Assembly: GCF_902832885.1 (NCBI RefSeq)
Contig: NZ_CADFDK010000004.1
Coordinates: forward strand, 157,655-221,654
Direction: 5' to 3'
Source of the DNA: Burkholderia seminalis DSM 23518
GTDB lineage: Bacteria > Pseudomonadota > Gammaproteobacteria > Burkholderiales > Burkholderiaceae
DNA length: 64,000 nt
Of the stretch, positions 14,640 through 31,406 are shown in pieces. A program made the position numbers and the translations under genes. The notes under the pieces were generated by a model, which was not told the origin of the DNA, ran no database searches, and was given only the letters and a program-made list of their open reading frames with translations. Each line of letters begins with the position of its first letter. The first letter of the stretch is position 1.

Positions 14640-14844
14640 GTGGGTGGGTCTCCTTGAAAGACGCGCGCCGGGTTCCCGGCGGAGGTTGGGCGTGCGTTCC
14701 TGACTTGACGGCCGCCCGGCCGCGGACTTGAGGTCGGGTAAACATCGAGATCGGCGTGCCGGACGACCGGACCGGCACCGGGCGGGGCGCGTTTGCGTCG
14801 GGTTTGCGCCGCGTTGCCGTGCCGGCCTTGCCGACTTGCGCAGC

Positions 14845-14876
14845 CGAACGGGCGGCGCGTGCCGGCCGCCCGTTCG
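14845..14876 (-). terminator. Perfect 12-bp hairpin after the porin gene
   Basis: CGAACGGGCGGC and GCCGCCCGTTCG pair perfectly around an 8-base loop, beginning about 11 bases past the porin stop codon. There is no clear U-run on either strand, so it may act as a terminator or as an mRNA 3'-stabilising structure. Confidence 0.6.
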
Positions 14877-14887
14877 CGAGCGCTGCG

Positions 14888-15958
14888 TCAGAACACGTGG
14901 CGGATGCCGGCGTTGACGCCGACCGTCGTGCCCGGCAACCCGTACAACGCGCCGCCCGTGATGCCGAGGCCGGTATTCATCGCGCCGTGGTTGTTGACGA
15001 CGCCGACCTGCGCATACAGGCCGGTTCGTTTCGACAGACTGTAGTCGGCGCCGACCGCGGCAAGCAGCGAGTGATTGTGCGAATCGTTGCGGTCGGTCGT
15101 GTACCACGCGCCGGTATTCAGGTCGAGGGCCGGCGTGACGCGATAGTCGAGGCCGGCGCTATACACGTTGTTGCTGAACGAGCCGGCGACCTTGTAGCTC
15201 GTGAACGACGCCTTGCCGGTCACGGGGCCGAACGTATAGGCGGCACCGATCGTGCGGCCGACGAACGCGACCGTGCTCGCAACCGGCGTCGGGGACGTGC
15301 CGCCGTTGCCGTCGTAGAGCGCCGCGTTGAGCATGAAGCCGCCGCTCGTATAGGTGACGCTTCCGGAATACTGGCGTCCTGCCTGGAAGTCGCCGGCCTT
15401 TCCGCCGAAGCCGAACATCGCGCTGGCCGTCAGCCCGGCGATCGTCGGGCTCGTATACGAAATCGCGTTCGGGTTGAAGAGGCCCGTGACGAGCACGTTG
15501 TCGACGTACGGCACCAGTGCTGCGCCGAAGTGGGAGACGTTGCGCGGGTCCGATCCGAGTATCGCGAGCACGAACGGCGAGAACTGCAGGCCGACCTTCG
15601 TTTCGCCGAATCCGCCGTCGATCCCGACCCACGCCTGGCGGCCGAAGAAGTTGCCGTTCGAATGGCCGAATGCGCCATCCGTGACGTTGAAGCCGCTCTC
15701 CAGCTTGAACTTCGCGTGCAGCCCGCCGCCGAGATCCTCGCTTCCGGTGATGCCGAAGTTGGTCGGCGTCATGCCCGTGTCGGTCAGCGCGAACTGGCGC
15801 CCGGCGTTGCCGCCGGTTGCCGAATCGAGCGATCGGCTCGTATAGAGCAAGGCGGCGTCGAGGTCGCCGTACAGCGTGACACTGCTCTGCGCGAAACCGC
15901 TCGTGCTTGCCGCCGCGCCGAGCAGCGCCGTGCAAATCGTCCATGTCCTGCTCTTCAT
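14888..15958 (-). CDS. Gram-negative porin (OmpC-like, Burkholderiales type)
   Basis: 356 residues with a typical signal peptide ending near residue 24 (G-F-A-Q-S-S-V-T-L-Y-G). The mature protein starts with the first beta strand as in Burkholderia porins. Alternating hydrophobic strands and Gly/Asn loops continue to a C-terminal aromatic residue (H-V-F), the beta-barrel assembly signal. It should form a trimeric 16-strand diffusion channel in the outer membrane. The start at 15958 has a CGGAGA site. A palindromic operator candidate lies upstream at 15985-15998. Confidence 0.93.
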   Translation of the reverse strand: MKSRTWTICTALLGAAASTSGFAQSSVTLYGDLDAALLYTSRSLDSATGGNAGRQFALTDTGMTPTNFGITGSEDLGGGLHAKFKLESGFNVTDGAFGHSNGNFFGRQAWVGIDGGFGETKVGLQFSPFVLAILGSDPRNVSHFGAALVPYVDNVLVTGLFNPNAISYTSPTIAGLTASAMFGFGGKAGDFQAGRQYSGSVTYTSGGFMLNAALYDGNGGTSPTPVASTVAFVGRTIGAAYTFGPVTGKASFTSYKVAGSFSNNVYSAGLDYRVTPALDLNTGAWYTTDRNDSHNHSLLAAVGADYSLSKRTGLYAQVGVVNNHGAMNTGLGITGGALYGLPGTTVGVNAGIRHVF

Positions 15959-15984
15959 CGTCTGTCTCCGTTTTTTTGAGTGTT

Positions 15985-15998
15985 GTAATACGTATTAC
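15985..15998. promoter_or_regulatory. Perfect 14-bp palindrome upstream of porin
   Basis: GTAATACGTATTAC reads identically on both strands, sits 27 bases before the porin ATG, and lies in a short AT-rich patch. Its position suits an operator overlapping the transcription start. The regulator is not identifiable from this window. Confidence 0.5.
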
Positions 15999-16318
15999 TA
16001 ATTAAAAGCGCCGTAACGGAATCGATGTGAGCCGCCTGCATGCCGTGCCGTCGGGGAACGCACGGCGATGCTTGTTGCCGGCGCGAATGTGATTCCTGAC
16101 GGCGCTCGGGAAAATGCAACATGCATGCCAGGCGCGCGACCGGTGCGTGCAGGCGGGGAAAGCCGCGACAGCCGGGCGCGTGGCGAACCACCTGGTCGAC
16201 CCAGTGACATCGCGGACGGTAACGCGACACGAGGAAGCGTTCAGAAATGCAGCAGATCGTGTTGCAGTCCTGATCAGTTTTCGTGCGAGCGGAATGATGG
16301 TCGCCCGGCGCGGCCGCG
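15999..16318. other. Non-coding stretch between porin and sigma-factor gene
   Basis: About 320 bases. Apart from the AT-rich start that belongs to the porin promoter, I see no gene, strong hairpin or repeat here. Confidence 0.4.
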
Positions 16319-18176
<1,858 letters not shown>

Positions 18177-18193
<17 letters not shown>

Positions 18194-18491
18194 AGACGTT
18201 GCACCAGCCTTCGGCGGCAACCGCCTTGCCCGCGAACATCGGGCACGTACCGAAGGATTCGCCCGCGGCAGCCTTGTAGAAGCGGCAGTTCGAACACGTC
18301 TGGCCGGCCTGGTACTTCGGGAACTTGCCTGCGTCGACGGTCGTCGCCTTTGCGCGGTAGCCGAGCGTCTTCGCTGCCGCGTCGTTTTCGTCGACGGGCG
18401 GTGCGGCGGCGAATGCGCGCGTGCCGGCCGCGAGCGCGGCGCACAGGCCGGCAGCCTGAACGAAGAAGGTCCGGCGATGGCGGGAGATCAT
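18177..18491 (-). CDS. High-potential iron-sulfur protein (HiPIP), Tat-exported
   Basis: 104 residues. The N-terminus S-R-H-R-R-T-F-F is a twin-arginine signal followed by a hydrophobic stretch ending near A-F-A-A-A (residue 29). Four Cys residues (66, 69, 83 and 97) with the spacing C-x2-C-x13-C-x13-C and flanking aromatics fit a 4Fe-4S HiPIP cluster. HiPIPs are soluble periplasmic one-electron carriers to terminal oxidases or reaction centres. Its place downstream of a PQQ dehydrogenase and a cytochrome domain suggests that it takes part in that electron chain, which is inference. Its last 17 bases overlap the sigma-factor start. Confidence 0.92.
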
Positions 18492-18516
18492 GATGTCGTC
18501 CTGAATGAAATGAAGG

Positions 18517-18557
18517 AAAAAAGTCCGGCCCGCGCGCCGGGCGTGCATCCCGGCGCG
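18517..18557 (-). terminator. Competing hairpins with U-run between cytochrome-fusion and HiPIP genes
   Basis: Read on the minus strand, a 9-bp hairpin (arms 18549-18557 and 18533-18541) overlaps a second, shorter hairpin CCGGC/GCCGG (18536-18540 and 18525-18529). The second is followed by AC and six U residues (18522-18517). The two cannot form together. This is the arrangement of an intrinsic terminator with an alternative fold and could attenuate read-through into the HiPIP and sigma genes. Confidence 0.45.
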
Positions 18558-18589
18558 ACGGTCGATCGAAGCGAAGGTGGGCGGGGAGC

Positions 18590-19795
18590 TTACTTGCGCG
18601 GCCCGGCGATGAGCGGCGCCTTCGAGGCGTTGGCGATATCGGCGGTCAGCTTGCTCTTCGACGTGTCGTAGCCGTTCGAGTAAAGCAGGAACGCCATCAG
18701 GTCCTCGTATTCCTCCGCGGTCAGCTTGCCGGGGCGATCGGCCGGCATGTTGCTCGACATGTACAGGAAGATGCCGCCGACGGTGATGTGCGACTTGCCC
18801 TCGGGAGCGAACGCCTCCCCGCTCAGCGCGGGCGCGGTATTGCCCTCTAGCTGGTCGCCGTGGCATTTCGCGCACGCATCGGCGTACAGCTTCTTGCCGT
18901 GCTGCACCTGCGTCTGGTCGAACGACGGGACGCCGCTGCCTTCGCCCGTCGACACCTTGATGAAACCGCTCCTTGCCGGCCGCTGCGCGGACGCGAGCGC
19001 GCCGTCGAGAAACCGGCCGGGCGCGGTCGTGGCAGCGGCTTGCGCGATGTCGTCGGGAAGCGTCCAGCCGCGCGTGAGCGATGCGAGACGACCGTTACCG
19101 CTCATCTGCGACAGCGCGGCGTCGATGCGCTTCTGCAGCGCGTCCTTGCCCGGCCCGAAGGCGAACGACAGTTGCCAGTCGGAGTATGGCGACGACGTCG
19201 CCGCAACCTGGAACCGTTGTTTCGGATGCGCGCGCGCATAGGCGACGACGCTCGGATACCAGACGATCGCGCGCTGCGCGCGGCCGGCGGCGAGCGCGCC
19301 GATCGTTTGCTCGCTCGTGTTCTCGAGGTCGAAGCGGGCGTTCGCCTGCTGCGCGGCGATCAGCTGCGACGGGCTGCCGTACGTGGCCGCGATCGTTTCC
19401 TTCGTGCCGGCCGGTGCGTGCGCATCGCGCAGCGACACGCTGACGTAGCCGGAGCGCAGATAGCCCTGCGAGAACGTCATTTTCGATCCCGACGCATCGG
19501 CGATCGCCGAACGCGGGAAGCCGGCGATCACGTCGCAGTCGCGTTCGAGCGACTTCGTCAGCTCGCTGGCGGAGATGCCGTCGTCGTCGCCATTGTCGTC
19601 GACGCCGCGTTTGTTGAAGGTCGCGGCGATGCCCGCGGTGCGGAACACTTCGCGCGCAACGGCGCGGTCGAGCGCCGTGGTCGGACTGCCGGGCAGCGTG
19701 CAGACGCGCACGCCGGCCGACGCGGCTGCCGGTGTCAGCGCCACGCCCACGGCGAGCAGACTGGCGACGGTAACGGAGGTGAGACGAGTATTCAT
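18590..19795 (-). CDS. XoxJ-like periplasmic binding protein fused to cytochrome c
   Basis: 401 residues with an N-terminal signal peptide (cleavage near A-S-A-G, residue 28). Residues about 29-275 resemble the solute-binding-protein-like component associated with quinoprotein dehydrogenases (XoxJ/MxaJ type). After a short linker comes a class I cytochrome c domain with C308-A-K-C-H312 and a likely axial Met in S-S-N-M-P. In methylotrophs XoxJ and cytochrome XoxG are separate proteins, whereas here both roles sit in one chain. The adjacent dehydrogenase makes it the probable physiological electron acceptor and maturation/activation partner. It is separated from the dehydrogenase by 80 bases that contain a strong hairpin. 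Confidence 0.85.
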   Translation of the reverse strand: MNTRLTSVTVASLLAVGVALTPAAASAGVRVCTLPGSPTTALDRAVAREVFRTAGIAATFNKRGVDDNGDDDGISASELTKSLERDCDVIAGFPRSAIADASGSKMTFSQGYLRSGYVSVSLRDAHAPAGTKETIAATYGSPSQLIAAQQANARFDLENTSEQTIGALAAGRAQRAIVWYPSVVAYARAHPKQRFQVAATSSPYSDWQLSFAFGPGKDALQKRIDAALSQMSGNGRLASLTRGWTLPDDIAQAAATTAPGRFLDGALASAQRPARSGFIKVSTGEGSGVPSFDQTQVQHGKKLYADACAKCHGDQLEGNTAPALSGEAFAPEGKSHITVGGIFLYMSSNMPADRPGKLTAEEYEDLMAFLLYSNGYDTSKSKLTADIANASKAPLIAGPRK

Positions 19796-19825
19796 GGTCG
19801 TGTGTCCGGTTGAGGCGGGTGGGGC

Positions 19826-19858
19826 GTCGCGCCCGCATCGGGCGCATGCGGGCGCGAC
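19826..19858 (-). other. Perfect 13-bp stem in the dehydrogenase-cytochrome intergenic gap
   Basis: GTCGCGCCCGCAT (19826-19838) pairs perfectly with 19846-19858 around a 7-base loop. No U-run follows on the minus strand. It probably stabilises the upstream dehydrogenase mRNA or lowers expression of the downstream fusion gene, giving unequal enzyme and acceptor levels. Confidence 0.6.
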
Positions 19859-19875
19859 TCGGGGCTGGCGCGCGT

Positions 19876-21597
19876 TCAGTCGAGCGCGAACACGTAGAGC
19901 GTGCCGCCGCGCGGAACGTCCTTCGCGATGTCGGCCATCGGGCCGCCCCAGATCGGGTTCGCGCCGCCGTAGCCGGCGAGCACGGCGACATACTCCTTGC
20001 CGTCGACCTCGTACACCGACGGTTGCGAAATGATGCCGCTCGCCAGTTGCGGGCTTTCCCACAGCACCTTGCCGGTCGCCGTGTCGAACGCGTACAGGTG
20101 GCCGTCGAGCGAGCCGCTGAACGCGAGGCCGCTCGCCGTGGTCGCGACGCCGCCGTTCCACGGCTTCTTCGACCAGTGGCTCCACAGCTTCTTGCCGGTG
20201 TTCACATCGATGGCCGTCAGTTCGCCGTAGCCTTCGCTGCCCGGTTCGGGCTTGATCTCGAAGCCTTCGCCGAGATACGGCAGGCCTTCCATGTAGCTGA
20301 CCGACTTGCCGGTCAGGCTCATGCACGCGTGCAGTGCCGGCACGACCGCGATGTTGCGTTCCTGGTCGTACGAGATCGACCACCAGTTCTTGCCGCCGAG
20401 GAAGCTCGGGCACGTTTCGATCGTCGTGCCGGCCTTCGGGAACTTCGATGCGTCCTGGATCGGTTTGCCGTCGGCCGTGTAGCCGGTGACCGACAACGCC
20501 TTCACGAACGGCGTCGCGTAGATCAGCTTGCCGGTCGTGCGGTCGATCGCGTGGAAGAAGCCGTTGCGGTCCGCGTGGATGATCGCGTCGTAGTCCTTGC
20601 CCTTGTACTTGATGTCCGCGAGGACGGCCGCATTCACGCCGTCGTAGTCCCACGTGTCGTTGTTCGTGTACTGGTAGTGCCACTTCAGGTTGCCGTTCTT
20701 CGCGTCGAGCGCGAGCAGCGAGTCGGAATACAGGTTGTCGCCGGGGCGCAGCGCGGCGAGCCACGGGCCGGGGTTGCCGACCCCCCAGTACAGCGTGCGG
20801 GACGCGGCGTCGTACGTGCCGGTGAGCCACGCGGCGCCGCCGCCGTGGCTTTGCATGCCGTCGGGCCAGGTTTCCGCGCCCTTTTCGCCGGCGGCGGGAA
20901 TCGTGTAGCGCTTCCAGACCTGCGAGCCGTCCTCCGGGTTCAGCGCGGCGATGTAGCCGCGAATGCCGTATTCGCCGCCGGACGTGCCGACGACGATCGC
21001 GCCGTCGATCGCGAGCGGCGCGAGCGAGAACGCGTAGCCGAGGCCCGGCTCGAACATCTGCTTCTTCCACACGAGATTGCCGGTCTGCGCGTCGAGCGCC
21101 GCGATTTCACCGCTCAGCATCGCGATGTAGACGTTCTTGCCGTACAGCGCGACGCCGCGGTTGACGACGTCGCAGCACGCGGTCTTGAACGAGGCCGCGC
21201 CGAGCTTCGGCTCGTATTTCCACAGCTGGCGGCCCGTTTTCGCGTCGAACGCGTAGACGTTGTCCTTCGGCGTCGTCACGAACAGATAGTTGCCGTTGAC
21301 GATTGGCGTGGCTTCGAAACCCTGCTTCAGGTCGGCGGGGAACTTGTACGCCCAGACCTGCTTGAGATCCTTCGCGTTCGACGTGTCGATCTGCTTGAGC
21401 GGCGAATGCGAGCGGCCGTCGTAGGTGCGGTAGTAGGTCAGCCAGCCGGGGTCGCCGTGTGCATCGGTCAGGCGCTGGTAGGTCACGGCCGGGTAGTCCG
21501 CGGCCGCTTCGACGAGGCCGGGGTTCAGTGCGATGGCGGCGGCCACCGCGACTACGGTCGTCGCCAGCCGGCTCGCTGAAGCCGAGAGTTTCTTCAT
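19876..21597 (-). CDS. PQQ-dependent alcohol dehydrogenase, predicted lanthanide type
   Basis: 573 residues with a cleavable signal peptide (about 32 residues). The repeated beta-propeller motifs (for example G-R-Q-L-W-K-Y and G-K-V-L-W-E-S) and the adjacent Cys141-Cys142 pair that stacks on PQQ identify the methanol/ethanol dehydrogenase family. The catalytic segment is W316-D317-Y318-D319. An Asp two residues after the catalytic Asp is the known extra lanthanide ligand of XoxF/ExaF/PedH enzymes; calcium-type MxaF/ExaA/PedE have Ala or Ser there. The protein is therefore probably Ln-dependent and oxidises primary alcohols in the periplasm. The substrate cannot be read from sequence. The start has an AGGAGA site, and a sigma-54 promoter lies about 93 bases upstream. 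Confidence 0.93.
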   Translation of the reverse strand: MKKLSASASRLATTVVAVAAAIALNPGLVEAAADYPAVTYQRLTDAHGDPGWLTYYRTYDGRSHSPLKQIDTSNAKDLKQVWAYKFPADLKQGFEATPIVNGNYLFVTTPKDNVYAFDAKTGRQLWKYEPKLGAASFKTACCDVVNRGVALYGKNVYIAMLSGEIAALDAQTGNLVWKKQMFEPGLGYAFSLAPLAIDGAIVVGTSGGEYGIRGYIAALNPEDGSQVWKRYTIPAAGEKGAETWPDGMQSHGGGAAWLTGTYDAASRTLYWGVGNPGPWLAALRPGDNLYSDSLLALDAKNGNLKWHYQYTNNDTWDYDGVNAAVLADIKYKGKDYDAIIHADRNGFFHAIDRTTGKLIYATPFVKALSVTGYTADGKPIQDASKFPKAGTTIETCPSFLGGKNWWSISYDQERNIAVVPALHACMSLTGKSVSYMEGLPYLGEGFEIKPEPGSEGYGELTAIDVNTGKKLWSHWSKKPWNGGVATTASGLAFSGSLDGHLYAFDTATGKVLWESPQLASGIISQPSVYEVDGKEYVAVLAGYGGANPIWGGPMADIAKDVPRGGTLYVFALD

Positions 21598-21689
21598 GGT
21601 TGTCTCCTGAGTCATTGTGGTCGCACCGCCGCGAACGATTCGTCGCGCCGGCACGGTTGGGGTGTCCGGGCCGAGTGCACTGCCCTTTA

Positions 21690-21705
21690 CGCAAGTCGCA
21701 TGCCA
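21690..21705 (-). promoter_or_regulatory. Sigma-54 (-24/-12) promoter of the PQQ dehydrogenase
   Basis: On the minus strand TGGCATGCGACTTGCG matches TGGCACR-N4-TTGCW with exact GG-N10-GC spacing. It points at the dehydrogenase gene, with about 93 bases to the ATG. Confidence 0.75.
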
Positions 21706-21791
21706 TCGCGGCGGGATGCCGGTGCGGCGCGGTGCACCGGCGGATCGCGGGTGATGTGCCGATCGGCGAGACGCGCCATGACGTCGACGCA

Positions 21792-21844
21792 GGTGTTGCA
21801 TTCAGGTACACCGTCGCGCGCGAAGTGTTGCCAAACATGACAGG
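21792..21844. promoter_or_regulatory. Two candidate enhancer dyads shared by divergent sigma-54 promoters
   Basis: The first dyad (21792-21812) is GGTGT-N11-ACACC. The second (21824-21844) keeps the core TGT-N11-ACA but has weaker outer bases. They are 32 bp apart (three turns) and lie about 120-126 bases from each of the two divergent -24/-12 promoters. The same 21-bp form recurs upstream of pqqA. They are probable binding sites for the sigma-54 activator encoded at 25727. Confidence 0.6.
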
Positions 21845-21937
21845 TGGCGCAGTCCGCGGTGCAGCGGGCCGCCGGTTGCACGCATGCCGTTCCGCAGCGA
21901 TGCGCGGCGCGGCACGCTGCGCTCGTCCGCGCTGCGC

Positions 21938-21953
21938 TGGCACGGTTCTCGCA
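21938..21953 (+). promoter_or_regulatory. Sigma-54 (-24/-12) promoter of the TonB-dependent receptor
   Basis: TGGCACGGTTCTCGCA matches TGGCACR-N4-TTGCW with one change and exact GG-N10-GC spacing, 76 bases before the receptor ATG. Confidence 0.7.
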
Positions 21954-22029
21954 CGCCCGCTTCGCGACAACTCGTCGCCGCACGGTGCATCGCCCGCGCC
22001 GGCGGAATAGGAATGCGGAGACAACGTAA

Positions 22030-24360
22030 ATGATCAGGAGACCAAAGGCCGCCGGGTGTGACGGCGCGACACGACGTGGCCGGCGTGCGCGATGCGTCGG
22101 CACGACCCTCGGCGCGCTCGCGCTGTTCGGCTTGCCGCCCGGCGGCGTGCGCGCGCAGCAGCAGCCGGACGCCGCCGCGATCGTGCCGCCCGCGCCGGCC
22201 GTCATGCTGCCTGCGGTGGTGGTGGTCGGCACCACGCCGCTGCTCGGGATCGGCACGCCGCTGTCGAAGGTGCCGGCGAACGTGCAGACGGTGCGCGCGG
22301 CGGAACTCGAGATCCAGCACCGCGCGACGCTCGCCGATTTCTTCGCCGCGAACCTGCAGAGCGTGACGATCTCGGATGCGCAGGGCAATCCGTATCAGAC
22401 GGACGTCAACTATCGCGGCTTCACCGCGTCGCCGCTCCTCGGCACGCCGCAGGGATTGTCGGTGTTTGTCGACGGCGTGCGCATGAACGAGCCGTTCGGC
22501 GACGTCGTGAACTGGGACATCCTGCCGGTGCAGGCGATCGACCGCGTGCAGCTGATTCCGGGCTCCAACCCGGTGTACGGGCTCAACACGCTCGGCGGCG
22601 CGCTCGCGATCACGACGAAGAACGGCAAATCGAGCCCGGGAGGCGAGGCGGAGGTGTCGGGCGGCGCGTGGGGCCGCAAGACCGCGAGCATCGAGCAGGG
22701 CGGCACGATCGGCCCGAACCTCGACTACTATGCGACCGCGAACCTCGCGAACGACAGCGGCTGGGCGGACCATAACGCGAGCCGCGTGCGGCAGGCGTTC
22801 GGCAAGCTGCGCTATACCGATGCGGACACGACGCTGTCGATCGCCGCAGGCGGCGCGGACAACACGCTGTCCGGCACCCAGACGATCCCGCGCTCGTTCG
22901 TCGACAACCCGAAGCAGGCGTATACGTATCCGGACCGGAACCACAACAGCGCCGGCTACCTGACGCTGTCGGGCGATCGCTTTTTCGGCGAGAACGTCGA
23001 GCTGAGCGGCAACGCATACTACCGGCACCTGCGCAACGCGAACACGAGCAGCAACAACAATACGGATTATGGTTCGGTGAACGACGACGGAACGGTCGAC
23101 ACGGTGCAGGGCAGCAACGCGCAATCGACGATCGTCACCGACAGCTACGGCGGCAGCGTGCAGCTCACGCTGCTCGGCAAGCTCGGCGGAATGGCGAACC
23201 GGCTGGTCGCGGGCGTCTCGGCCGATGTCGCGAACTCGAGCTACGTCGCGTCGTCGCAGGACGCATCGTTCACCGATGCGCGCGAGGCGATCGGCATCGG
23301 CGATTTCGTCCGGCAGACCAGCGCGAAGACGCGCAACGCGAGCGTCGGTGCATACCTGAGCGATGCGCTGTCGCTGACGCCGCACTGGACGCTCACGCTG
23401 TCGGGCCGCTACGACTGGTCGAAAGCGCGAATCGGCGACGAGAGCGGCGTGCAGCCGCTGCTCGACGGCAACCATGTATTCTCGCGCTTCAACCCGGCGG
23501 TCGGGCTCAACTGGAATCCGGTCGCGGGATTCACCGCGTATGCAACCTACAACGAGGGCATGCGGTCGCCGACCGCGATCGAGCTCGCGTGCGCGGACCC
23601 GTCCGCGCCGTGTTCGCTGCCCAACGACTTCATCGCCGACCCGGCGCTCAAGCCCGTGATTTCGAAGACGTTCGAAGCCGGCGTGCGCGGCCGCGTCGGC
23701 GCGGCGACGACCTGGAGCGCCGCGGCCTATCGCACGACACTGAGCGACGACATTCAGTTCATCAGCAGCCCGGCCAGCGCGCAGGGCTATTTCCGCAACG
23801 TCGGCGATACGCGGCGGCAGGGGATCGAGCTCGCCGGCCGCACGCGGTTCGGCCCGCTCGGTGTCGGGCTGTCGTACAGCCATGTCGAGGCGACCTACCG
23901 GTCTTCGTGGACCGAACACAGCCCGGCGAATTCGGCGGCCGACGCGAACGGCAACGTGACGGTCAAGCCGCGCGACCGCATCCCCGGCATTCCCGCGCAT
24001 ACGGTGAAGCTGCGGCTCGACTACGCGGCGACGTCCGCGTGGGACATCGGTACGAACGTAACGTGGCGCAGCGGCGTGTATGCGCGCGGCGACGAGAACA
24101 ACGAGGACGTCAACGGCCGGATCGCAGGTTACGTGCTGGTCGATCTCGACATGCGTTACCGGATCACGAAGCGGTTCGAGGTGTTCGCGAGCGTGACGAA
24201 CCTGTTCGACAGGCGCTACGCGAGCTTCGGCGCACTGGGCCAGAATTTCTTCAACGGGCCGAACCACACCTTCGACGGCGCGAATCCGGTGAACGAGCAG
24301 TTCGTCGGGCCCGGCGCACCGCGCGGCGCATGGGTCGGCGTGCGCTACGCGTGGGATTGA
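22030..24360 (+). CDS. TonB-dependent outer-membrane receptor
   Basis: 776 residues. The signal peptide ends near V-R-A-Q. The plug domain (about residues 60-200) contains V-N-Y-R-G-F and L-S-V-F-V-D-G-V-R-M-N-E-P-F-G, followed by L-N-T-L-G-G-A-L. A 22-strand barrel ends in W-V-G-V-R-Y-A-W-D, with the penultimate aromatic slightly displaced. The family imports scarce ligands using TonB energy. Divergence from a predicted lanthanide dehydrogenase, with shared enhancer sites, makes a lanthanide-chelate or PQQ the most attractive ligands. An iron-siderophore role cannot be excluded, and no Fur-like site was recognised nearby. The start has a GGAGA site 10 bases upstream. Confidence 0.9.
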   Translation: MIRRPKAAGCDGATRRGRRARCVGTTLGALALFGLPPGGVRAQQQPDAAAIVPPAPAVMLPAVVVVGTTPLLGIGTPLSKVPANVQTVRAAELEIQHRATLADFFAANLQSVTISDAQGNPYQTDVNYRGFTASPLLGTPQGLSVFVDGVRMNEPFGDVVNWDILPVQAIDRVQLIPGSNPVYGLNTLGGALAITTKNGKSSPGGEAEVSGGAWGRKTASIEQGGTIGPNLDYYATANLANDSGWADHNASRVRQAFGKLRYTDADTTLSIAAGGADNTLSGTQTIPRSFVDNPKQAYTYPDRNHNSAGYLTLSGDRFFGENVELSGNAYYRHLRNANTSSNNNTDYGSVNDDGTVDTVQGSNAQSTIVTDSYGGSVQLTLLGKLGGMANRLVAGVSADVANSSYVASSQDASFTDAREAIGIGDFVRQTSAKTRNASVGAYLSDALSLTPHWTLTLSGRYDWSKARIGDESGVQPLLDGNHVFSRFNPAVGLNWNPVAGFTAYATYNEGMRSPTAIELACADPSAPCSLPNDFIADPALKPVISKTFEAGVRGRVGAATTWSAAAYRTTLSDDIQFISSPASAQGYFRNVGDTRRQGIELAGRTRFGPLGVGLSYSHVEATYRSSWTEHSPANSAADANGNVTVKPRDRIPGIPAHTVKLRLDYAATSAWDIGTNVTWRSGVYARGDENNEDVNGRIAGYVLVDLDMRYRITKRFEVFASVTNLFDRRYASFGALGQNFFNGPNHTFDGANPVNEQFVGPGAPRGAWVGVRYAWD

Positions 24361-24386
24361 GCGCGGCGCGTTCGCTCGTGTCGTCG

Positions 24387-24403
24387 CGCGGCGTCATGCC
24401 GCG
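24387..24403. terminator. Short hairpin between convergent receptor and peptidase genes
   Basis: CGCGGC-GTCAT-GCCGCG gives a 6-bp perfect stem in the 59-base gap between two convergent stop codons. It may serve both strands but has no U-run. Confidence 0.35.
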
Positions 24404-24419
24404 AGCGGGCGCGGGGCCG

Positions 24420-25409
24420 TCAGGTCAACGGCACCGTCGCGAACATCGCATGCGCGGCGCGTGCGACGCTGCGCGCCAGTGCCGGGTCGCTGGCCAGATG
24501 CCCGGCCCGCACGCGTTCGATTTTCGCCTCGGGTACGGCCCGCGCGAGGCGCTCGACGTTGCGGACCGGGCAAACGGGATCGTGTATCCCGTGCGCGGCG
24601 AACAGCGGCACCTGGGCCTGGGCGGCGCGTCGCGCGAGCGCGAGCACGCGGCGCTCGCCGAGCCAGCAATCGCGTTGCAGGTAGTGCGCCTGGATCCGGT
24701 ATTTGTCGATCAGCCGCCCGACGGTCTCGTTCGACCGGATCGTGCGGACGGGCGAGCGGCGCGTGCGCGCCGATGCGAGGAGGGCGTTTTCATAGGCGTG
24801 CCACGCGAGCGCCACCGCGCGCTGTCGGGCTGCGCTTGCGCCGCGGCGCAGCCGCTGCGCGCAGCGCGCCAGCAGGCGTTCCGGCTGGCCGCCGCCGGCT
24901 GCCGCATGCAGGCGGCGCCATTCGCGCGGGGCACGTGTGCGGGACGTCACGAAGAGGCCGCGGACTTCGCGTCGCGACGTCAGGAACAGGCCGCGCAGCA
25001 CGACCCCGGTCACCCGCTCCGGATGCGTGCCCGCATACGCGAGCGCGAGCGCGGCGCCCCACGATCCGCCGACGACGCCCCAGCGTGCAATGCCGAGCTG
25101 CGCGCGTACCGCCTCGAGATCCGCGATCAGCCGCGCGGTGTGGTTGTGACGCGTGCCGCCGCGCGGCCCCGACGCGCCCGCGCCGCGCTGGTCGACGAGC
25201 ACCACGCGCATGCGCGCGAGGTCGAACAGCCGCAGGATGCCGGCCTGGCTGCCGCTGCCGGGCCCGCCGTGCAGCACGACGACCGGGTGGCCCTGCGGGG
25301 CGCCGGCCACGGCGAACGCGATCGATTGCGCGTCGCGATGCAGGCGCCGGCGAACGGGCATGGCCGGCGAGGCGGGCGATGGCGTGGAGCGAAGCGGGCG
25401 GCGTGTCAT
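24420..25409 (-). CDS. Proline iminopeptidase-like alpha/beta hydrolase
   Basis: 329 residues from the ATG at 25409; longer and shorter starts are possible because no clear ribosome site is seen. The oxyanion region V-V-V-L-H-G-G-P-G-S-G, the D-Q-R-G-A-G-A-S motif, the nucleophile elbow G-G-S-W-G-A-A-L and a late G-H-L (catalytic His) match the S33 prolyl aminopeptidase family. These enzymes remove N-terminal Pro from peptides in the cytoplasm. The protein is unusually Arg-rich in its cap region. It lies inside a PQQ locus that has no pqqF protease gene, so a role in trimming the PqqA precursor is conceivable but is only a guess. Confidence 0.8.
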   Translation of the reverse strand: MTRRPLRSTPSPASPAMPVRRRLHRDAQSIAFAVAGAPQGHPVVVLHGGPGSGSQAGILRLFDLARMRVVLVDQRGAGASGPRGGTRHNHTARLIADLEAVRAQLGIARWGVVGGSWGAALALAYAGTHPERVTGVVLRGLFLTSRREVRGLFVTSRTRAPREWRRLHAAAGGGQPERLLARCAQRLRRGASAARQRAVALAWHAYENALLASARTRRSPVRTIRSNETVGRLIDKYRIQAHYLQRDCWLGERRVLALARRAAQAQVPLFAAHGIHDPVCPVRNVERLARAVPEAKIERVRAGHLASDPALARSVARAAHAMFATVPLT

Positions 25410-25655
25410 GTCGATGGGGTTCGCGCGGAATAGGAACGGTAACCGTCGGCGGCCGGGCAGTCGCCAGGCCTGCCCTGCGACCAAGCGAGAAGCGAGCCAG
25501 CGGCGCGCCGGCCGCGAAGATCCGGATTCGCACGGGTAGTCACGCGGCGGGAAATCACGGTATCACGCAGGCAGGCCGTCGCGCGACGCGACACGCCCGG
25601 CCGTGCCCGGACGACTGATTACATTGTCCTTTCATGAGGTTGAGCGGCGTCGGCG
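25410..25655. other. Intergenic region between peptidase and activator
   Basis: Together with the promoter that follows this forms a divergent gap of about 317 bases. No gene or TGT-N11-ACA dyad was found in this part. Confidence 0.4.
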
Positions 25656-25671
25656 TGGCCCGATGCTTGCT
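25656..25671 (+). promoter_or_regulatory. Sigma-54 (-24/-12) promoter of the activator gene
   Basis: TGGCCCGATGCTTGCT differs from TGGCACR-N4-TTGCW at one base and has exact GG-N10-GC spacing, 55 bases before the activator ATG. This suggests autoregulation. Confidence 0.6.
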
Positions 25672-25726
25672 TGCAATGACGGCAAAGAGTCCGGCAGTTG
25701 ACCGGAAGGATCCCCCGGAGGAGACA

Positions 25727-27757
25727 ATGCGCGATGACGTAGAGCAGGCGGCCGGGTCACGGGCCGTGCATCCCGCTGGCTGGCCCGCGCCGTCGATCCA
25801 GAAGGCCCATGAGCGCTCGGAGACATTCGGCCTGCAGGTATCGGCGCGGCCCGATTACGACGTGCTGTCGACCTCGGCGCTGGTGCTCAAGCGCGAGCAG
25901 AGCCGGGTGCTGTGCGTGCACGCGATGCCGGTGATGGAGACGCTGCACGAACAGATCGTCAATACGCAGAGCATGATCGTGCTCACCGATGCGGAGGGGC
26001 TGATCCTGCACTCGATCGGCGACGACGATTTCCTGCGCCGCGCGGAAAAGGTCGCGCTGCGCCCGGGCGCGAACTGGGCGGAGAACCGGCAGGGCACCAA
26101 CGCGATCGGCACGGCACTGGCCGAGCTGTGCCCGATGGTCGTCCACGGCGACCAGCACTTCCTGGCCGCGAACCGCTTCCTGACCTGTTCGAGCGTGCCG
26201 ATTCTCGATCCGTACGGGGATGCGATCGGCGTGCTCGACGTGACGGGCGATCACCGCAGCTATCACCAGCACACGATGGCGCTCGCGAAGATGTCGGTGC
26301 AGATGATCGAGAATCACCTGTTTACGACGACGTTTCAGGAAACGCTGCAGGTATCGTTCCATGGCCGCCCCGAGTTCCTCGGCACGCTGATGGAGGGGAT
26401 CGTCGCGTTTACCGCCGACGGGCGCTTCCTGTCGGCCAATCGCAGCGCGCAGTTCCAGCTCGGCATGCCGCTCGCCGTGCTGCGCGCGCACACGCTGTCG
26501 TCGCTGTTCGACGTCACCAGCGCGCAGTTGATCGACCGCATGCGCGCGAGCACCGACCGGCACCTGATGCTCAATCTCGGCAACGGCGCGGTGGTCTGCG
26601 CGCGCGTGCACTTTCGCCGCGCGACGCTCGCCGAAGGCAGCCGGCCGACGGACGTTCACGATGCGGGGGCGCCGGCCGCGCGCGCGAACGCGGTGCCCGC
26701 GCCGGCGGCGGGCACGTCGGCCGGCCTGTCGCGGCTCAACTATCTCGACACCGGCGATGCGCAGGTCGCCAGCGTGATCGCGAAAGTGCGCAAGGTGATC
26801 GGCAAGGACATTCCGATCCTGATCACCGGCGAGACCGGCACCGGCAAGGAACTGCTCGCGCAGGCGATCCACAACGACTCGCCGCGCCGCGACGCGCCGT
26901 TCGTCGCGGTCAATTGCGCGTCGATTCCGGAGACGCTGATCGAGTCCGAGCTGTTTGGCTACGAGGAGGGGGCGTTCACCGGCGCGCGCCGCAAGGGGGC
27001 GATCGGCAAGCTGCTGCAGGCGAACGGCGGCACGCTGTTTCTCGACGAGATCGGCGACATGCCGTATCCGCTGCAGGTGCGGCTGCTGCGCGTGCTGCAG
27101 GAGCGCCTCGTCAACCCGCTCGGCTCGACGAAGACGATCGCCGTGGATATCGCGATCATCTGCGCGACGCACCGCGACTTGCGCGACATGATCGCGCAGA
27201 ACCGTTTCCGCGAGGATCTCTACTACCGGTTGAACGGCCTTGTGGTGCGCCTGCCGCCGTTGCGCGACCGCACGGATCTCGCGGTCGTCGTGCAGAAGAT
27301 GCTGCAGCGCGAAGCGTTCGCGGGCCCGGGGCGTCCGCCCTTGTCCGTCGCGCCGGACGTGATGGCGCTGTTCGTGCGCTGCACGTGGCCTGGCAACTTC
27401 CGCCAGCTCGGCAACCTGCTGCGTACGGCGGCGGCCATGGTCGACGACGACGGCGAAATCCGCCGCGAGCACCTGCCGGACGACTTCTTCGACGACCTGC
27501 GGCGTGGCGATGCGCAGGCCGTGCAGGCCGCGCCCGATTCGTCCGCCGCGGCGGGCGCCGGGCCCTGTATCGCGGATGCGTTGCCGGCCGCCGACGCGCG
27601 GCTGCAGGACGTCGCCGCGTCCGCGATCGCCGCCGCGCTCGCCCGTCACGGCGGCAACGTGTCCGCCGCGGCGCGCGCGCTCGGCGTCTCGCGCAACACG
27701 ATCTACCGGAAGATGCCGGCAGCCGACGCGGGGCGCCCGCCGTCGGACGAAAGCTGA
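25727..27757 (+). CDS. Sigma-54-dependent activator, AcoR-like (GAF-AAA-Fis)
   Basis: 676 residues from the ATG at 25727, which follows GGAGGAG; the frame is open further upstream but without a comparable site. The N-terminal sensory region includes a GAF-like domain (about residues 60-200, with N-R-Q-G-T-N-A-I-G-T-A) and a PAS-like part. The central AAA+ domain has Walker A G368-E-T-G-T-G-K-E, the sigma-54 contact loop G415-A-F-T-G-A and Walker B F-L-D-E-I-G-D. A Fis-type helix-turn-helix (G-N-V-S-A-A-A-R-A-L-G-V-S-R-N-T) ends the protein. Relatives such as AcoR and ethanol-oxidation regulators respond to small alcohols or ketones. It probably controls the four sigma-54 promoters found around it. 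Confidence 0.92.
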   Translation: MRDDVEQAAGSRAVHPAGWPAPSIQKAHERSETFGLQVSARPDYDVLSTSALVLKREQSRVLCVHAMPVMETLHEQIVNTQSMIVLTDAEGLILHSIGDDDFLRRAEKVALRPGANWAENRQGTNAIGTALAELCPMVVHGDQHFLAANRFLTCSSVPILDPYGDAIGVLDVTGDHRSYHQHTMALAKMSVQMIENHLFTTTFQETLQVSFHGRPEFLGTLMEGIVAFTADGRFLSANRSAQFQLGMPLAVLRAHTLSSLFDVTSAQLIDRMRASTDRHLMLNLGNGAVVCARVHFRRATLAEGSRPTDVHDAGAPAARANAVPAPAAGTSAGLSRLNYLDTGDAQVASVIAKVRKVIGKDIPILITGETGTGKELLAQAIHNDSPRRDAPFVAVNCASIPETLIESELFGYEEGAFTGARRKGAIGKLLQANGGTLFLDEIGDMPYPLQVRLLRVLQERLVNPLGSTKTIAVDIAIICATHRDLRDMIAQNRFREDLYYRLNGLVVRLPPLRDRTDLAVVVQKMLQREAFAGPGRPPLSVAPDVMALFVRCTWPGNFRQLGNLLRTAAAMVDDDGEIRREHLPDDFFDDLRRGDAQAVQAAPDSSAAAGAGPCIADALPAADARLQDVAASAIAAALARHGGNVSAAARALGVSRNTIYRKMPAADAGRPPSDES

Positions 27758-27794
27758 CGCGCAGCCGTCGCGCCGGGCGCGGCCTGTCACAGCC

Positions 27795-27836
27795 GGTGTG
27801 TCAAGTTGCAACACCGGTGTTCAACGATTCAACACC
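27795..27836. promoter_or_regulatory. Two abutting 21-bp enhancer dyads upstream of pqqA
   Basis: The dyads 27795-27815 and 27816-27836 both have the form GGTGT-N11-ACACC and abut directly, so they are exactly two helical turns apart. They lie about 140-180 bases upstream of the pqqA -24 element, a standard distance for a sigma-54 activator site. Confidence 0.65.
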
Positions 27837-27972
27837 TGTCACCACTCGCGGACATCGCGCCGCCGGGGTGGCGGCCCGCATTCGCACGAATCGTGTCGGC
27901 CATTCGTAAGGATTGCGCCCCGATGGCCGGACGAGGGCCGTCTGCCGCCGCCGCACCGCCGAAATACGGCTT

Positions 27973-27988
27973 CGGCACGCTCCTTGCT
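27973..27988 (+). promoter_or_regulatory. Sigma-54 (-24/-12) promoter of pqqABCDE
   Basis: CGGCACGCTCCTTGCT matches TGGCACR-N4-TTGCW except for the first base, with exact GG-N10-GC spacing. It lies 83 bases before pqqA. The rest of the 27758-28071 gap holds no gene. Confidence 0.75.
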
Positions 27989-28071
27989 GAAGAGTAACCG
28001 ACCGCGCGATTGCCGCGGTCGTTCGACTCATCCGGCAACGCATCAATCCTCAACTCGACAGGAGACACACC

Positions 28072-28146
28072 ATGCAGTGGACGACACCGTCTTACACCGA
28101 CCTGCGCTTCGGCTTCGAAATCACGATGTACATCGCCAACCGCTGA
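28072..28146 (+). CDS. pqqA: Coenzyme PQQ precursor peptide
   Basis: A 24-residue peptide ending I-A-N-R. Glu16 and Tyr20, spaced E-x3-Y, are the residues that PqqE crosslinks and that become the PQQ skeleton. A strong AGGAGA site lies 6 bases before the ATG. It heads the pqq operon behind the sigma-54 promoter and is separated from pqqB by a hairpin, which suits the need for much more PqqA than enzymes. Confidence 0.96.
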
Positions 28147-28158
28147 TCGCCGCGCGTG

Positions 28159-28189
28159 CCGCCCGCTTCGCCGTGGTCGGCGCGGGCGG
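28159..28189 (+). other. Hairpin between pqqA and pqqB
   Basis: CCGCCCGC (28159-28166) pairs with GCGGGCGG (28182-28189), and a smaller GCC/GGC pair nests in the loop. It probably dampens transcription or stabilises the pqqA message, raising the pqqA to pqqBCDE ratio. Confidence 0.5.
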
Positions 28190-28207
28190 TCTCGGGAGCT
28201 GACGCCC

Positions 28208-29131
28208 ATGAAGATCAAGATACTCGGCTCGGGAGCCGGCGGCGGCCTGCCGCAATGGAACTGCAATTGTGCGAACTGCCGCCGTGCGCGCAGCGGAAGC
28301 GGCCACGTGCTGTCGCGCACGCAGTCGTCGATCGCGGTCAGCGACGACGGCATCGACTGGGTTCTGGTCAACGCGTCGCCCGACATTCTTTCCCAGTTGC
28401 GCGCGGCGCCGGACCTGCAACCGGCGCGCGCGATCCGCGACAGCGGCATCGCCGCCGTCGTGCTGTGCGACGCGCAGATCGATCACGTGACGGGCCTGCT
28501 GATGCTGCGCGAGCGCTCGACGCCGCTGCCGCTCTACGCGAGCGCGCCGGTACTCGACGACCTGTCGACCGGCTTGCCGCTCGTGCCGCTGCTCGGCCAT
28601 TACTGCGGCGTTGCCGCGCACACGATCGTGCCCGGCGAGCCGTTTGCGGTGCCGGCGGCGAGCGGGATCCGTTTCACCGCGATTGCCGTCGACAGCAAGC
28701 CGCCGCCTTATTCGCCGCGGCGCGCGTCGGCCGCGCCCGGCGACAACATCGCGCTGTCGATCGAAGACGTCGCGAGCGGGCGGCGCGCCTTCTATGCGCC
28801 GGGACTCGCGTCGGTCACCGACGACGTACGCGCGGCAATGGACGGCGCCGATCTCGTGCTGGTGGACGGCACCTTCTGGACCGGGACCGAGATGATCGAT
28901 CTCGGCCTGTCGGGCAAGCACGCGTCCGACATGGGACATCTCGCGCAGTGCGCGGAACACGGGCGGCCCGGCATGATCGACTGGCTCGACAGGTTGCCCG
29001 CGCGAACGCGCAAGGTGCTCACGCACATCAACAACACGAACCCGATTCTCGATCCGCATTCCGTCGAACACGCGCACCTGCGCGCGCATGGCATCGATGT
29101 CGCGCACGACGGCATGCAATTCCAGGTCTGA
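28208..29131 (+). CDS. pqqB: PQQ biosynthesis hydroxylase PqqB
   Basis: 307 residues, the usual length. The start [18 protein letters not shown] and the Cys-rich C-N-C-A-N-C motif are typical of PqqB, a metallo-beta-lactamase-fold protein. Family work assigns hydroxylation of the tyrosine part of the crosslinked intermediate. The conserved D-x-H-V-T-G-L (near residue 97) and D-M-G-H (near 242) segments carry the metal ligands. It lies 61 bases after pqqA and 2 bases before pqqC. Confidence 0.96.
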
Positions 29132-29133
29132 CG

Positions 29134-29853
29134 ATGAACGCACCGATCCCCGCTACGGCGTTGCACGCGACGCCCTGGACCGCGACCGAATTCGAGGCGC
29201 GCCTGCGTGCGCTCGAATCGCGCTATCACATCCATCATCCGTTCAACCGGCGGCTCAACGGCGGCGCCTGTTCGCCCACGCAGATTCGCGGCTGGGTCGC
29301 GAACCGCTTCTACTACCAGATCTGCATCCCGCTCAAGGATGCGGCGATCCTGTCGAACTGCCCGGATCGCGAGACGCGGCGCCGCTGGATCCAGCGGCTG
29401 ATCGACCACGACGGGCAGGGCGACAACGCAGGCGGCATCGAGGCGTGGGTGCGTCTCGGCGAGGCATGCGGTCTCGAGCGAGACGAACTGTGGTCGCTCG
29501 AACACGTGCTGCCCGGCGTGCGTTTCGCGGTGGATGCGTACGTAAACTTCGCGCGGCGCGCGCCATGGCAGGAGGCGGTGTGCTCGTCGCTGACCGAGAT
29601 GTTCGCGCCGCAGATCCATCTCGACCGGCTCGCGGGCTGGCCGTCGCATTACCCGTGGATCGAGCCGGCCGGGCTGCATTACTTCCGCAGTCGCGTGCCG
29701 CTCGCGCAGCGCGACGTCGAGCACGGGCTCGCGGTCACGCTCGCGCATTTCACGACACCGGAAGCGCAGCAGCGCGCGCTCGGCATTCTGCAATTCAAGC
29801 TCGACATCCTGTGGTCGATGCTCGACGCCGTCGAAAAGGCCTACCCGTTATGA
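29134..29853 (+). CDS. pqqC: Pyrroloquinoline-quinone synthase PqqC
   Basis: 239 residues, all-helical fold of the TenA/haem-oxygenase type. Segments [22 protein letters not shown] and H-Y-F-R-S-R are diagnostic. PqqC carries out the final ring closure and oxidation to PQQ in the cytoplasm. Its last four bases overlap the pqqD start, indicating translational coupling. Confidence 0.97.
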
Positions 29854-30131
29854 ATGCGATCGAAGCCGCCAGCGGCGTGCCGCTGCGCCCCTGCCTCAGG
29901 GGCATGTACCGCCTGCAATGGGAGGCGGCCCAGGAGGCGTACGTGCTGCTCTATCCGGAGGGCATGGTCAAGCTGAACCCGAGTGCGGGCGAGATCCTCG
30001 CGCGCTGCGACGGCACGCGCGAACTGGACGACATCATCGGCGAGCTCGAGCGCCTGTTCATGCAATCGGATCTCGCGACCGACGTCTACCGTTTCCTCGA
30101 TCATGCGCGACTGCGCGGCTGGCTCGACTGA
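29850..30131 (+). CDS. pqqD: PQQ precursor peptide chaperone PqqD
   Basis: 93 residues, starting within the ATGA overlap with pqqC. The winged-helix recognition element features [19 protein letters not shown] and C-D-G-T-R match PqqD, which binds PqqA and presents it to PqqE. It ends one base before the pqqE start. Confidence 0.96.
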
Positions 30132-30132
30132 C

Positions 30133-31272
30133 ATGACGTCCGACACTTCCCGTCCGTCCGCGCCGCTGTGGCTGCTCGCGGAACTCACGTACCGCTGTCC
30201 GCTGCACTGCGCGTTCTGCTACAACCCGGTCGACTTCGCGACGCACGGCGCGGAACTCGACACCGACACGTGGCGCACGGTCATCAGCGATGCGCGCGCG
30301 CTCGGCGCCGCGCAAATCGGGTTCTCGGGCGGCGAGCCGCTGCAGCGCGGCGACCTCGAGACGCTCGTCGCGCATGCGCGCGGGCTCGGCTTCTATACGA
30401 ACCTGATCACGTCGGGCATCGGGCTGAACGTCGCGCGCATCGAGCGGCTCAAGGCCGCCGGGCTCGACCACATCCAGTTGTCGCTGCAGGATTCGACGCG
30501 CGAGCTGAACGATTTCCTGACCAGCACGCGCACGTTCGAACTGAAGCGCGACGTGGCGCGGCTGATCAAGGCGCACGGTTACCCGATGGTGCTCAACTGC
30601 GTGCTGCATCGCTACAACCTGCCGCACGTGGGACAGATCATCGAGATGGCGCTCGACCTCGGCGCCGATTACCTGGAGCTCGCGAACACGCAGTACTACG
30701 GCTGGGCGATGCTCAATCGCGACCAGTTGATGCCGACCGTCGAGCAGGTGCGCGAGGCCGAGGATACGGTCAACCGCTATCGCAAGCTGATCGGAGAGCG
30801 CTGCAAGATCCTGTTCGTCGTGCCCGACTATTTCGAGCGCCGCCCGAAGGCCTGCATGAACGGCTGGGGTTCGGTGTTTCTCGGCGTCGCGCCGGACGGC
30901 ACCGCGCTGCCGTGCCATGCCGCGCGGTCGCTGCCGGGGCTCGCGTTGCCGAACGTGCGTGACCGGTCACTGCGGGAAATCTGGTACGACAGCGACGCGT
31001 TCAACGCGTTTCGAGGCGACGACTGGATGCGCGAAACGTGTCGCACGTGCGACGAGCGGCATGCGGATCACGGCGGTTGCCGGTGTCAGGCATACCTGCT
31101 GACGGGTGATCCGAACGAGGCCGATCCGGTGTGCGAGAAGTCCGCCCATCACGGCCAGGTCGAACAGGCCGTGCAGTTCGCGCGACGTCGCGCGCCGCGC
31201 GACGAACGACCGCTGGTGTTTCGCAGCAAGGAGAATTCGCTCGCGCAAGGCGGCGCGGCGTGCGACGGCTGA
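30133..31272 (+). CDS. pqqE: Radical SAM PqqA peptide cyclase PqqE
   Basis: 379 residues. The radical SAM cluster motif C22-P-L-H-C26-A-F-C29 is followed by G-F-S-G-G-E-P-L. A C-terminal SPASM domain has Cys residues in C-R-T-C-D-E-R and G-G-C-R-C-Q-A for auxiliary Fe-S clusters. It forms the Glu-Tyr carbon-carbon bond in PqqA. A basic C-terminal tail of about 45 residues is normal for Burkholderia and Pseudomonas forms. No pqqF or pqqG protease gene follows. Confidence 0.97.
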   Translation: MTSDTSRPSAPLWLLAELTYRCPLHCAFCYNPVDFATHGAELDTDTWRTVISDARALGAAQIGFSGGEPLQRGDLETLVAHARGLGFYTNLITSGIGLNVARIERLKAAGLDHIQLSLQDSTRELNDFLTSTRTFELKRDVARLIKAHGYPMVLNCVLHRYNLPHVGQIIEMALDLGADYLELANTQYYGWAMLNRDQLMPTVEQVREAEDTVNRYRKLIGERCKILFVVPDYFERRPKACMNGWGSVFLGVAPDGTALPCHAARSLPGLALPNVRDRSLREIWYDSDAFNAFRGDDWMRETCRTCDERHADHGGCRCQAYLLTGDPNEADPVCEKSAHHGQVEQAVQFARRRAPRDERPLVFRSKENSLAQGGAACDG

Positions 31273-31406
31273 CGGGGCGCGGTCAGGACGAGCGCGGGTG
31301 AGGCAGTGCGACGCAATGGATGTCTGAACGATCGATACGCAGTCCTCCGGATATATCTGGCGCAATTTCGCGCGCAACGAAGGCTGAACGCGGGACGGAG
31401 TGCGTG

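Follow-up and report, generated by a model that had tools for sequence, protein, structure and literature searches.

We analysed a 64,000-nucleotide window of the Burkholderia seminalis DSM 23518 genome (contig NZ_CADFDK010000004.1, positions 157,655 to 221,654) that carries genes for a pyrroloquinoline quinone (PQQ)-dependent alcohol dehydrogenase, a TonB-dependent receptor, an AcoR-like sigma-54 activator and PQQ synthesis. Judging from the sequence, we put at roughly 85% the probability that this cluster forms a sigma-54 regulon for alcohol oxidation that is periplasmic, PQQ-dependent and probably lanthanide-dependent. A first-pass annotation of the same DNA had proposed a sigma-54 regulon for PQQ alcohol oxidation, and its proposal finds support in the conservation of the promoter sites, in an operator common to several promoters, in the genetic linkage between the activator and the dehydrogenase and pqq genes, and in the two genes with an RpoN domain (Sigma54_DBD, over cut-off) that this 7.97 Mb genome encodes.

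We propose that the activator, which combines a GAF sensor domain, an AAA+ domain with the GAFTGA motif and a Fis-type helix-turn-helix (HTH), most likely responds to an alcohol or to the corresponding aldehyde. It would bind paired 17-bp operators 100-180 bp upstream of -24/-12 promoters and drive transcription by RNA polymerase carrying sigma-54. One operator pair would serve both the TonB receptor gene and the divergent dehydrogenase operon, in which the dehydrogenase would be followed by a fused XoxJ-like/cytochrome c protein, a high-potential iron-sulfur protein (HiPIP) and a sigma-70-like factor; the second pair would serve pqqA and the PQQ synthesis genes. A porin promoter would also belong to the regulon, the activator and hydrolase genes probably do too, and feedback of the activator on its own gene is possible.

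Predicted sigma-54 promoters and their conservation

Four elements with GG-N10-GC spacing had been reported in the window, and all four were present as described. They lie upstream of the dehydrogenase operon (TGGCATGCGACTTGCG, 21690..21705, minus strand, 93 nt before the ATG), the TonB receptor gene (TGGCACGGTTCTCGCA, 21938..21953, plus strand), the activator gene (TGGCCCGATGCTTGCT, 25656..25671, plus strand) and pqqA (CGGCACGCTCCTTGCT, 27973..27988, plus strand). When every GG-N10-GC site on both strands of the window (n = 1,332) was scored with an approximate sigma-54 matrix, these four ranked 6th, 3rd, 4th and 5th, respectively. Six sites scored at least 13.29, the value of the lowest of the four, whereas 200 shuffles that preserved dinucleotides averaged 1.39 such sites and never exceeded 5; this was the check that the first-pass annotation had suggested, and its outcome agrees with the annotation's view that four such matches are unlikely to arise by chance. 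A sigma-70 consensus scan of positions 14800-28300 returned one site, the same as in shuffles.

The count of four was itself too low. The best site in the window (TGGCATGCATGTTGCA, 16115..16130, minus strand) lies about 157 nt upstream of the porin gene and had been missed, so that there are at least five promoters of this type, and a sixth is possible at the alpha/beta hydrolase gene, where a weaker candidate element ranked 7th (TGGCTCGCTTCTCGCT, 25484..25499, minus strand). The site that ranked 2nd (26346-26361, minus strand), which lies antisense within the activator gene, was set aside as a chance match.

Conservation of these sites was assessed in the best 80 of 561 loci encoding activator relatives, taken with 10 kb flanks where the contig allowed; the window was added to the counts where stated. 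The closest named activator relatives among these 80 came from Burkholderia species such as B. cenocepacia and B. anthina. Promoter statistics were restricted to genes whose match started within the first 60 residues and that had at least 120 nt of upstream sequence. With the window included, a site scoring at least 9 was found upstream of 67/68 dehydrogenase, 70/81 activator and 68/69 pqqA genes, against 8.4, 7.0 and 8.2% of shuffled copies; at a score of at least 13 the counts were 62, 68 and 38, against 1.4, 1.0 and 1.2%. The loci that have all three of these sites include that of Paraburkholderia xenovorans LB400 (L045), a laboratory strain that is not pathogenic. The bases TGGCA and TTGC were invariant in the 67 best-scoring dehydrogenase sites, as were GGCA and TTGC in the 68 best-scoring pqqA sites. 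Part of this core invariance arises by construction, since the sites compared were chosen as best-scoring, which does not apply to their position and strand. The 30 bases preceding the site carried far less information, except for the few nearest to it at the dehydrogenase and pqqA sites, and the flanks drift.

Position was similarly constrained. The best pqqA site lay 61-93 nt from the start codon in 69/69 regions, and an activator site of at least 11 lay 45-90 nt from the start in 68/81 regions (window included), with one further site, in L036, at 299 nt. The remaining 12 activator regions scored below 11, nine of them in loci without the dehydrogenase gene and three in loci with it. No site scoring at least 11 was found upstream of the fused cytochrome gene (0/67) or of pqqE (0/46); upstream of pqqB such sites were found in 41/44 cases, most of them being the pqqA promoter itself.

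The other promoters were followed in fewer loci. A TonB-adjoining site of at least 11 was present in 23 of the 30 loci with divergent dehydrogenase and TonB matches (window included); in five of the seven exceptions the gap exceeds 2.5 kb and the site lies about 2 kb from the TonB gene, and the other two had a match to the C-terminal part of the receptor only and no site. A porin-type site of at least 13 was found in nine of the ten relatives scanned, the stretch of the tenth ending short of the place; in seven of these nine the porin gene is assumed from position, because it would lie beyond the fetched stretch. Among the seven porin matches that were scored, three had the site, and the other four, porins of 30-60% identity, had none at 11 or above. 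On the hydrolase strand, a site of at least 11 was present in 15/27 divergent loci (the window and 14 relatives, all Burkholderia).

These data bear on one alternative, namely that GC-rich sequence has produced the elements by chance. Of shuffled 350-nt upstream regions, 7 to 8% do contain a match scoring 9 or more, but in nearly all relatives the strand and core are the same and the place is similar, and we regard chance as a highly improbable source of the elements, which are better read as sigma-54 promoters.

Candidate operators of the AcoR-like activator

At the dehydrogenase/TonB promoters and at the pqqA promoter we found a 17-bp repeat with the pattern TGT-N8-GCAACA, placed 100-180 bp upstream. 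Two boxes are common to the divergent dehydrogenase and TonB promoters (TGTACCTGAATGCAACA, 21794..21810, and TGTCATGTTTGGCAACA, 21826..21842, both on the minus strand) and two lie upstream of pqqA (TGTGTCAAGTTGCAACA, 27797..27813, and TGTTCAACGATTCAACA, 27818..27834, both on the plus strand). Three of these four boxes fit the pattern and one is a near version of it; they resemble a dyad, TGTTGC-N5-GCAACA. An operator-like box with one degenerate half-site (TGATCAGGACTGCAACA, 16260..16276, minus strand) lies upstream of the porin promoter. Alignment of 27 loci upstream of the dehydrogenase gene again gave two boxes, cTGTCatgTTtgGCAACAc and TGTacctgaaTGCAACAc. The exact half-site TGCAACAC was present in 38/67 dehydrogenase, 36/68 pqqA, 14/18 TonB and 2/4 porin regions. 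A perfect TGTTGC-N5-GCAACA dyad was seen directly downstream of the activator gene in L036 and L037, two loci without the dehydrogenase.

Genome-wide, TGT-N8-GCAACA matched 24 times in 7.97 Mb, compared with 12 matches for the reversed pattern. Three of the 24 sit in the two intergenic regions of the cluster; a suitably oriented sigma-54 site 104-176 bp away was found for these three and for no other match. Three other matches (L113, L123 and L124) have a site of at least 11 within 300 bp and were rejected, as the site overlaps the box or stands in another geometry. Upstream of the 53% identical paralog at C4:364017 there is an operator-like box (C4:366155), accompanied only by the weak, overlapping site of L124. 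As a spacing control, the operator with one extra base (18 bp) gave 52 genome matches, against 66 for its control pattern; 30 of the 52 were made into loci, and one of these (L088) had sigma-54-like sites within 300 bp.

The protein that we propose to bind these boxes is encoded at 25727..27757 (plus strand), amid the four promoters first reported. Its description in the first-pass annotation as an AcoR-like activator with GAFTGA holds, and a GAF domain, a sigma-54 interaction domain and a Fis-type HTH can be added to it. GAFTGA was present in 79/80 of its relatives. We call it AcoR-like and not AcoR, because its linkage is to the dehydrogenase gene and because domain scans found no acetoin catabolism genes among its neighbours in the window. 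The dehydrogenase and fused cytochrome genes were found in 67/80 activator loci. Three of the 13 loci without the dehydrogenase (L008, L020 and L078) come from short contigs or contig edges and retain activator and pqqA sites; in the other ten, the activator-promoter site was found at its usual place in none (0/10).

Metal type of the dehydrogenase and distribution in the family

The dehydrogenase gene (19876..21597, minus strand; TIGR03075, 561.6 bits, over cut-off) has as its best match in the Protein Data Bank (PDB) the structure of PedH (6zcw). A second Asp, two residues after the first metal-site Asp, marks lanthanide-dependent enzymes. The window dehydrogenase reads WDYDGVN at this site, PedH reads WDFDGVN and ExaA (1flg) reads WDFSGNN. 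By this motif the enzyme is of the lanthanide (PedH-like) type, which the first-pass annotation omitted and which we add as a correction; dependence on a lanthanide itself is probable. The enzyme might instead use calcium despite the motif, and the cluster would then be an ordinary ExaA-like ethanol oxidation regulon: sequence cannot give metal use with certainty, and ExaA is also among the best structure matches. Yet the Asp-Tyr-Asp motif was kept in all 67 dehydrogenase relatives read, with the second Asp as in PedH, whereas ExaA has Ser there, and we consider calcium use unlikely and the lanthanide type the better reading.

Among 150 sampled genomes of the family, 16 from two other genera carried a second, deep clade (clade B) of PedH-like dehydrogenases, about 40% identical to that of the window. 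All 16 of these genes had a strong sigma-54 site, which lay 65-69 nt before the start in 14 of them, and all 16 genomes encoded an activator 58-61% identical to ours, whose gene is preceded by a sigma-54 site. An operator-like box was present upstream of the dehydrogenase in all 11 clade-B genomes of one genus, seven of the boxes starting with TGC instead of TGT. The metal motif was WDFDGVN in each of the seven clade-B genes read, of 16, and WDYTSTQ in both of the two calcium-type genes read, of six, the rest being placed in these classes by similarity. None of the six calcium-type genes, all from one genus, had a sigma-54 site at score 9 within 500 bp (0/6), and in the two of these genomes without a PedH-like gene the related activator was absent at E<=1e-200. 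In a wider sample of 369 genomes of the class, dehydrogenase relatives at 1e-150 were found in G463 only, besides G000.

Two features of individual clades were also recorded. In 11 loci of one genus (L172, L174, L175, L178-L183, L185 and L186) an operator box lies between the activator gene and pqqA, about 650 bp before pqqA. Control of pqqA may differ in these loci, because the operator is that far off and the pqqA site is poor (9.7 bits). A strong sigma-54 site also accompanies a second pqqA-like frame in L188 and L189, close to another paralog of the activator (53% identical).

Several results weigh against the regulon as we propose it. The matrix is approximate and was not trained on sites, and the loci compared are closely related because the best 80 of 561 activator relatives were taken. 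The activators of three dehydrogenase-linked loci (L017, L028 and L032) have no site reaching 11. The pqqA sites are weaker by the matrix, with 38/69 reaching 13, and the clade-B pqqA site was poor (9.7) in all 12 loci where pqqA was found. Two further dehydrogenases had no sigma-54 site, that of G087 (WDYDAMS, 42% identical) and that of G463 (another family, WDYDGAN). The exact half-site is not universal even in the regions where it is best represented (dehydrogenase, pqqA and TonB), and it was rare at the activator (4/71) and absent at the hydrolase (0/16). In the window itself, no operator was found at the hydrolase promoter or near the activator's own promoter. The place of the activator gene in the regulon, which the first-pass annotation had assumed, is upheld as far as its conserved -24/-12 element goes, and its control is less clear because no operator copy was found there.

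The missing operator at the activator's own promoter also favours another explanation, in which the -24/-12 promoters are real but their main activator is a different enhancer-binding protein, responsive to nitrogen or carbon status (e.g., CbrB-like), with the AcoR-like neighbour controlling only some of them. The genome offers candidates, as the activator has 25 matches in it at E<=1e-20, counting its own, and another activator could for that reason act here; this too counts against our proposal. Against such a protein stand the co-occurrence of activator, sites and PedH-like gene in both clades and the lack of the activator-promoter site at its usual place in all ten dehydrogenase-free loci (short and edge contigs excluded). 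We judge control by a different protein to be distinctly improbable, and continue to favour the AcoR-like activator as the regulator of the cluster.

A broader proposal can be made with less confidence. The sigma-54/AcoR-like switch may be ancestral in Burkholderiaceae and govern lanthanide-type alcohol oxidation throughout the family. One operator would couple the enzyme, its electron carriers, entry through the outer membrane (TonB receptor and porin) and PQQ synthesis; the switch would replace the two-component lanthanide switch of Pseudomonas, and the TonB receptor may import lanthanide chelates. We hold this proposal as tentative, at a little short of even odds.

Other genes of the cluster and relation to known systems

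The presumed dehydrogenase operon continues with three genes on the minus strand. The first (18590..19795) encodes a periplasmic protein in which a substrate-binding (MoxJ/XoxJ-like) domain is fused to a single-haem cytochrome c (Cytochrome_CBB3, 45.7 bits); the substrate-binding match is weak, with TIGR03871 at 24.4 and TIGR03872 at 26.7 bits, both far below cut-off. Of 48 relative frames read, two of them short, 47 had one CxxCH motif. The second gene (18177..18491) encodes the HiPIP (PF01355, 78.3 bits). The third (16319..18193), whose start overlaps the HiPIP stop, encodes an RpoD-like sigma-70 family factor (RpoD model 438.7 bits, cut-off 555); its position directly after the HiPIP gene in a probable sigma-54 operon suggests a sigma cascade. 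A relative of this factor was seen in 17/80 loci. The porin gene (14888..15958, minus strand) matched the PorB model at 35.8 bits, far below cut-off, and was assigned as a general porin.

On the other side of the cluster, the TonB-dependent outer-membrane receptor (22030..24360, plus strand; PF00593 and PF07715) had no PDB sequence match at 1e-5. The alpha/beta hydrolase (24420..25409, minus strand) is prolyl-aminopeptidase-like (TIGR01249, 213.3 bits, cut-off 259.75); its gene is divergent from the activator gene, with the weak sigma-54 site described above, and it could be a candidate PqqA-processing peptidase. The pqqA frame (28072..28146, plus strand, 24 aa) had no family match and was named by its sequence and its position before pqqB (28208..29131, plus strand; TIGR02108, 393.7 bits, over cut-off).

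The pqqA mRNA would begin with a stem-loop that starts at its predicted +1 (27999..28021, plus strand). The pattern CCGC-N(4-16)-GCGG was found at +3 to +5 in 65/68 pqqA leaders, with a loop of variable length, and the other three leaders fold with changed stems; the pattern was absent from dehydrogenase (0/67) and activator (0/71) leaders. An Rfam search of positions 14800-31400 gave one match, below the gathering score, and none at the pqqA stem-loop. RNAalifold gave no consensus structure for the pqqA leaders, so the candidate hairpin is drawn from counts of the pattern and from individual folds.

A PQQ alcohol dehydrogenase under sigma-54 control is already known: excerpts of published work place exaA of Azospirillum brasilense under sigma-54 and under EraR, a LuxR-type regulator (Singh et al. 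2017, doi 10.1128/JB.00035-17; PMC12826043, PMC6115532). The B. seminalis cluster resembles that system, as far as those excerpts describe it, in joining a PQQ-dependent alcohol dehydrogenase to predicted sigma-54 control; it differs in having an AcoR-like AAA+ activator with a candidate operator in place of the LuxR-type partner, and in having pqqA, TonB and porin genes with the same promoter type. BmoR of Thauera butanivorans, in the portions cited here, is an alcohol-responsive sigma-54 activator of an alkane monooxygenase, acting from an upstream site 193 bp from the boxes of the PBMO promoter (PMC8899819, PMC8784404). Our activator, also a sigma-54 activator with an upstream site and proposed to respond to alcohol, is likened to BmoR by description only, no BmoR sequence having been compared, and differs in its proposed control of alcohol oxidation genes where BmoR controls the monooxygenase.

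The lanthanide-type enzyme itself has its nearest structural counterpart in Pseudomonas putida KT2440, PedH being the closest solved structure to the window dehydrogenase. Its control in that strain is described, in the sections we cite, as a two-component lanthanide switch, PedS2/PedR2, together with CbrAB (PMC6115532, PMC12997753), unlike the switch proposed here. PqqU, the PQQ receptor of E. coli, is reported in part of PMC12124388 to be syntenic to PQQ synthesis genes in four Burkholderiales genomes. The window receptor is like PqqU in being a TonB receptor linked to PQQ use. We rejected it as PqqU itself: the required aromatic residue (Y, F or W) at position 99, as given in that part of PMC12124388, aligns with Leu, Val or Met here, in a weak, low-identity pairwise alignment. 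The motif used for this comparison was located in 23 of the 30 TonB receptor frames.

In the literature that we searched on sigma-54 control and lanthanide use around such genes, we did not find an AcoR-like activator with a candidate operator, joint control of pqqA and outer-membrane genes, or an association with the lanthanide type in two deep clades. Of three quinoprotein alcohol dehydrogenase promoters that Promden et al. reportedly studied in Pseudomonas putida HK5 in 2009, one is reported to be of the -24/-12 type and to lie near an acoR gene.

Outside the methylotrophs, rare-earth-dependent alcohol oxidation is best known in Pseudomonas, in which it is under the control of a two-component system. 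If our proposal is true, a different control joins the enzyme, cofactor synthesis and envelope genes, and would provide a defined gene set in which to look for lanthanide uptake and use in relatives of Burkholderia. That set would include an uncharacterised TonB receptor and a fused electron carrier, and the operator and promoter maps make the regulon directly testable.

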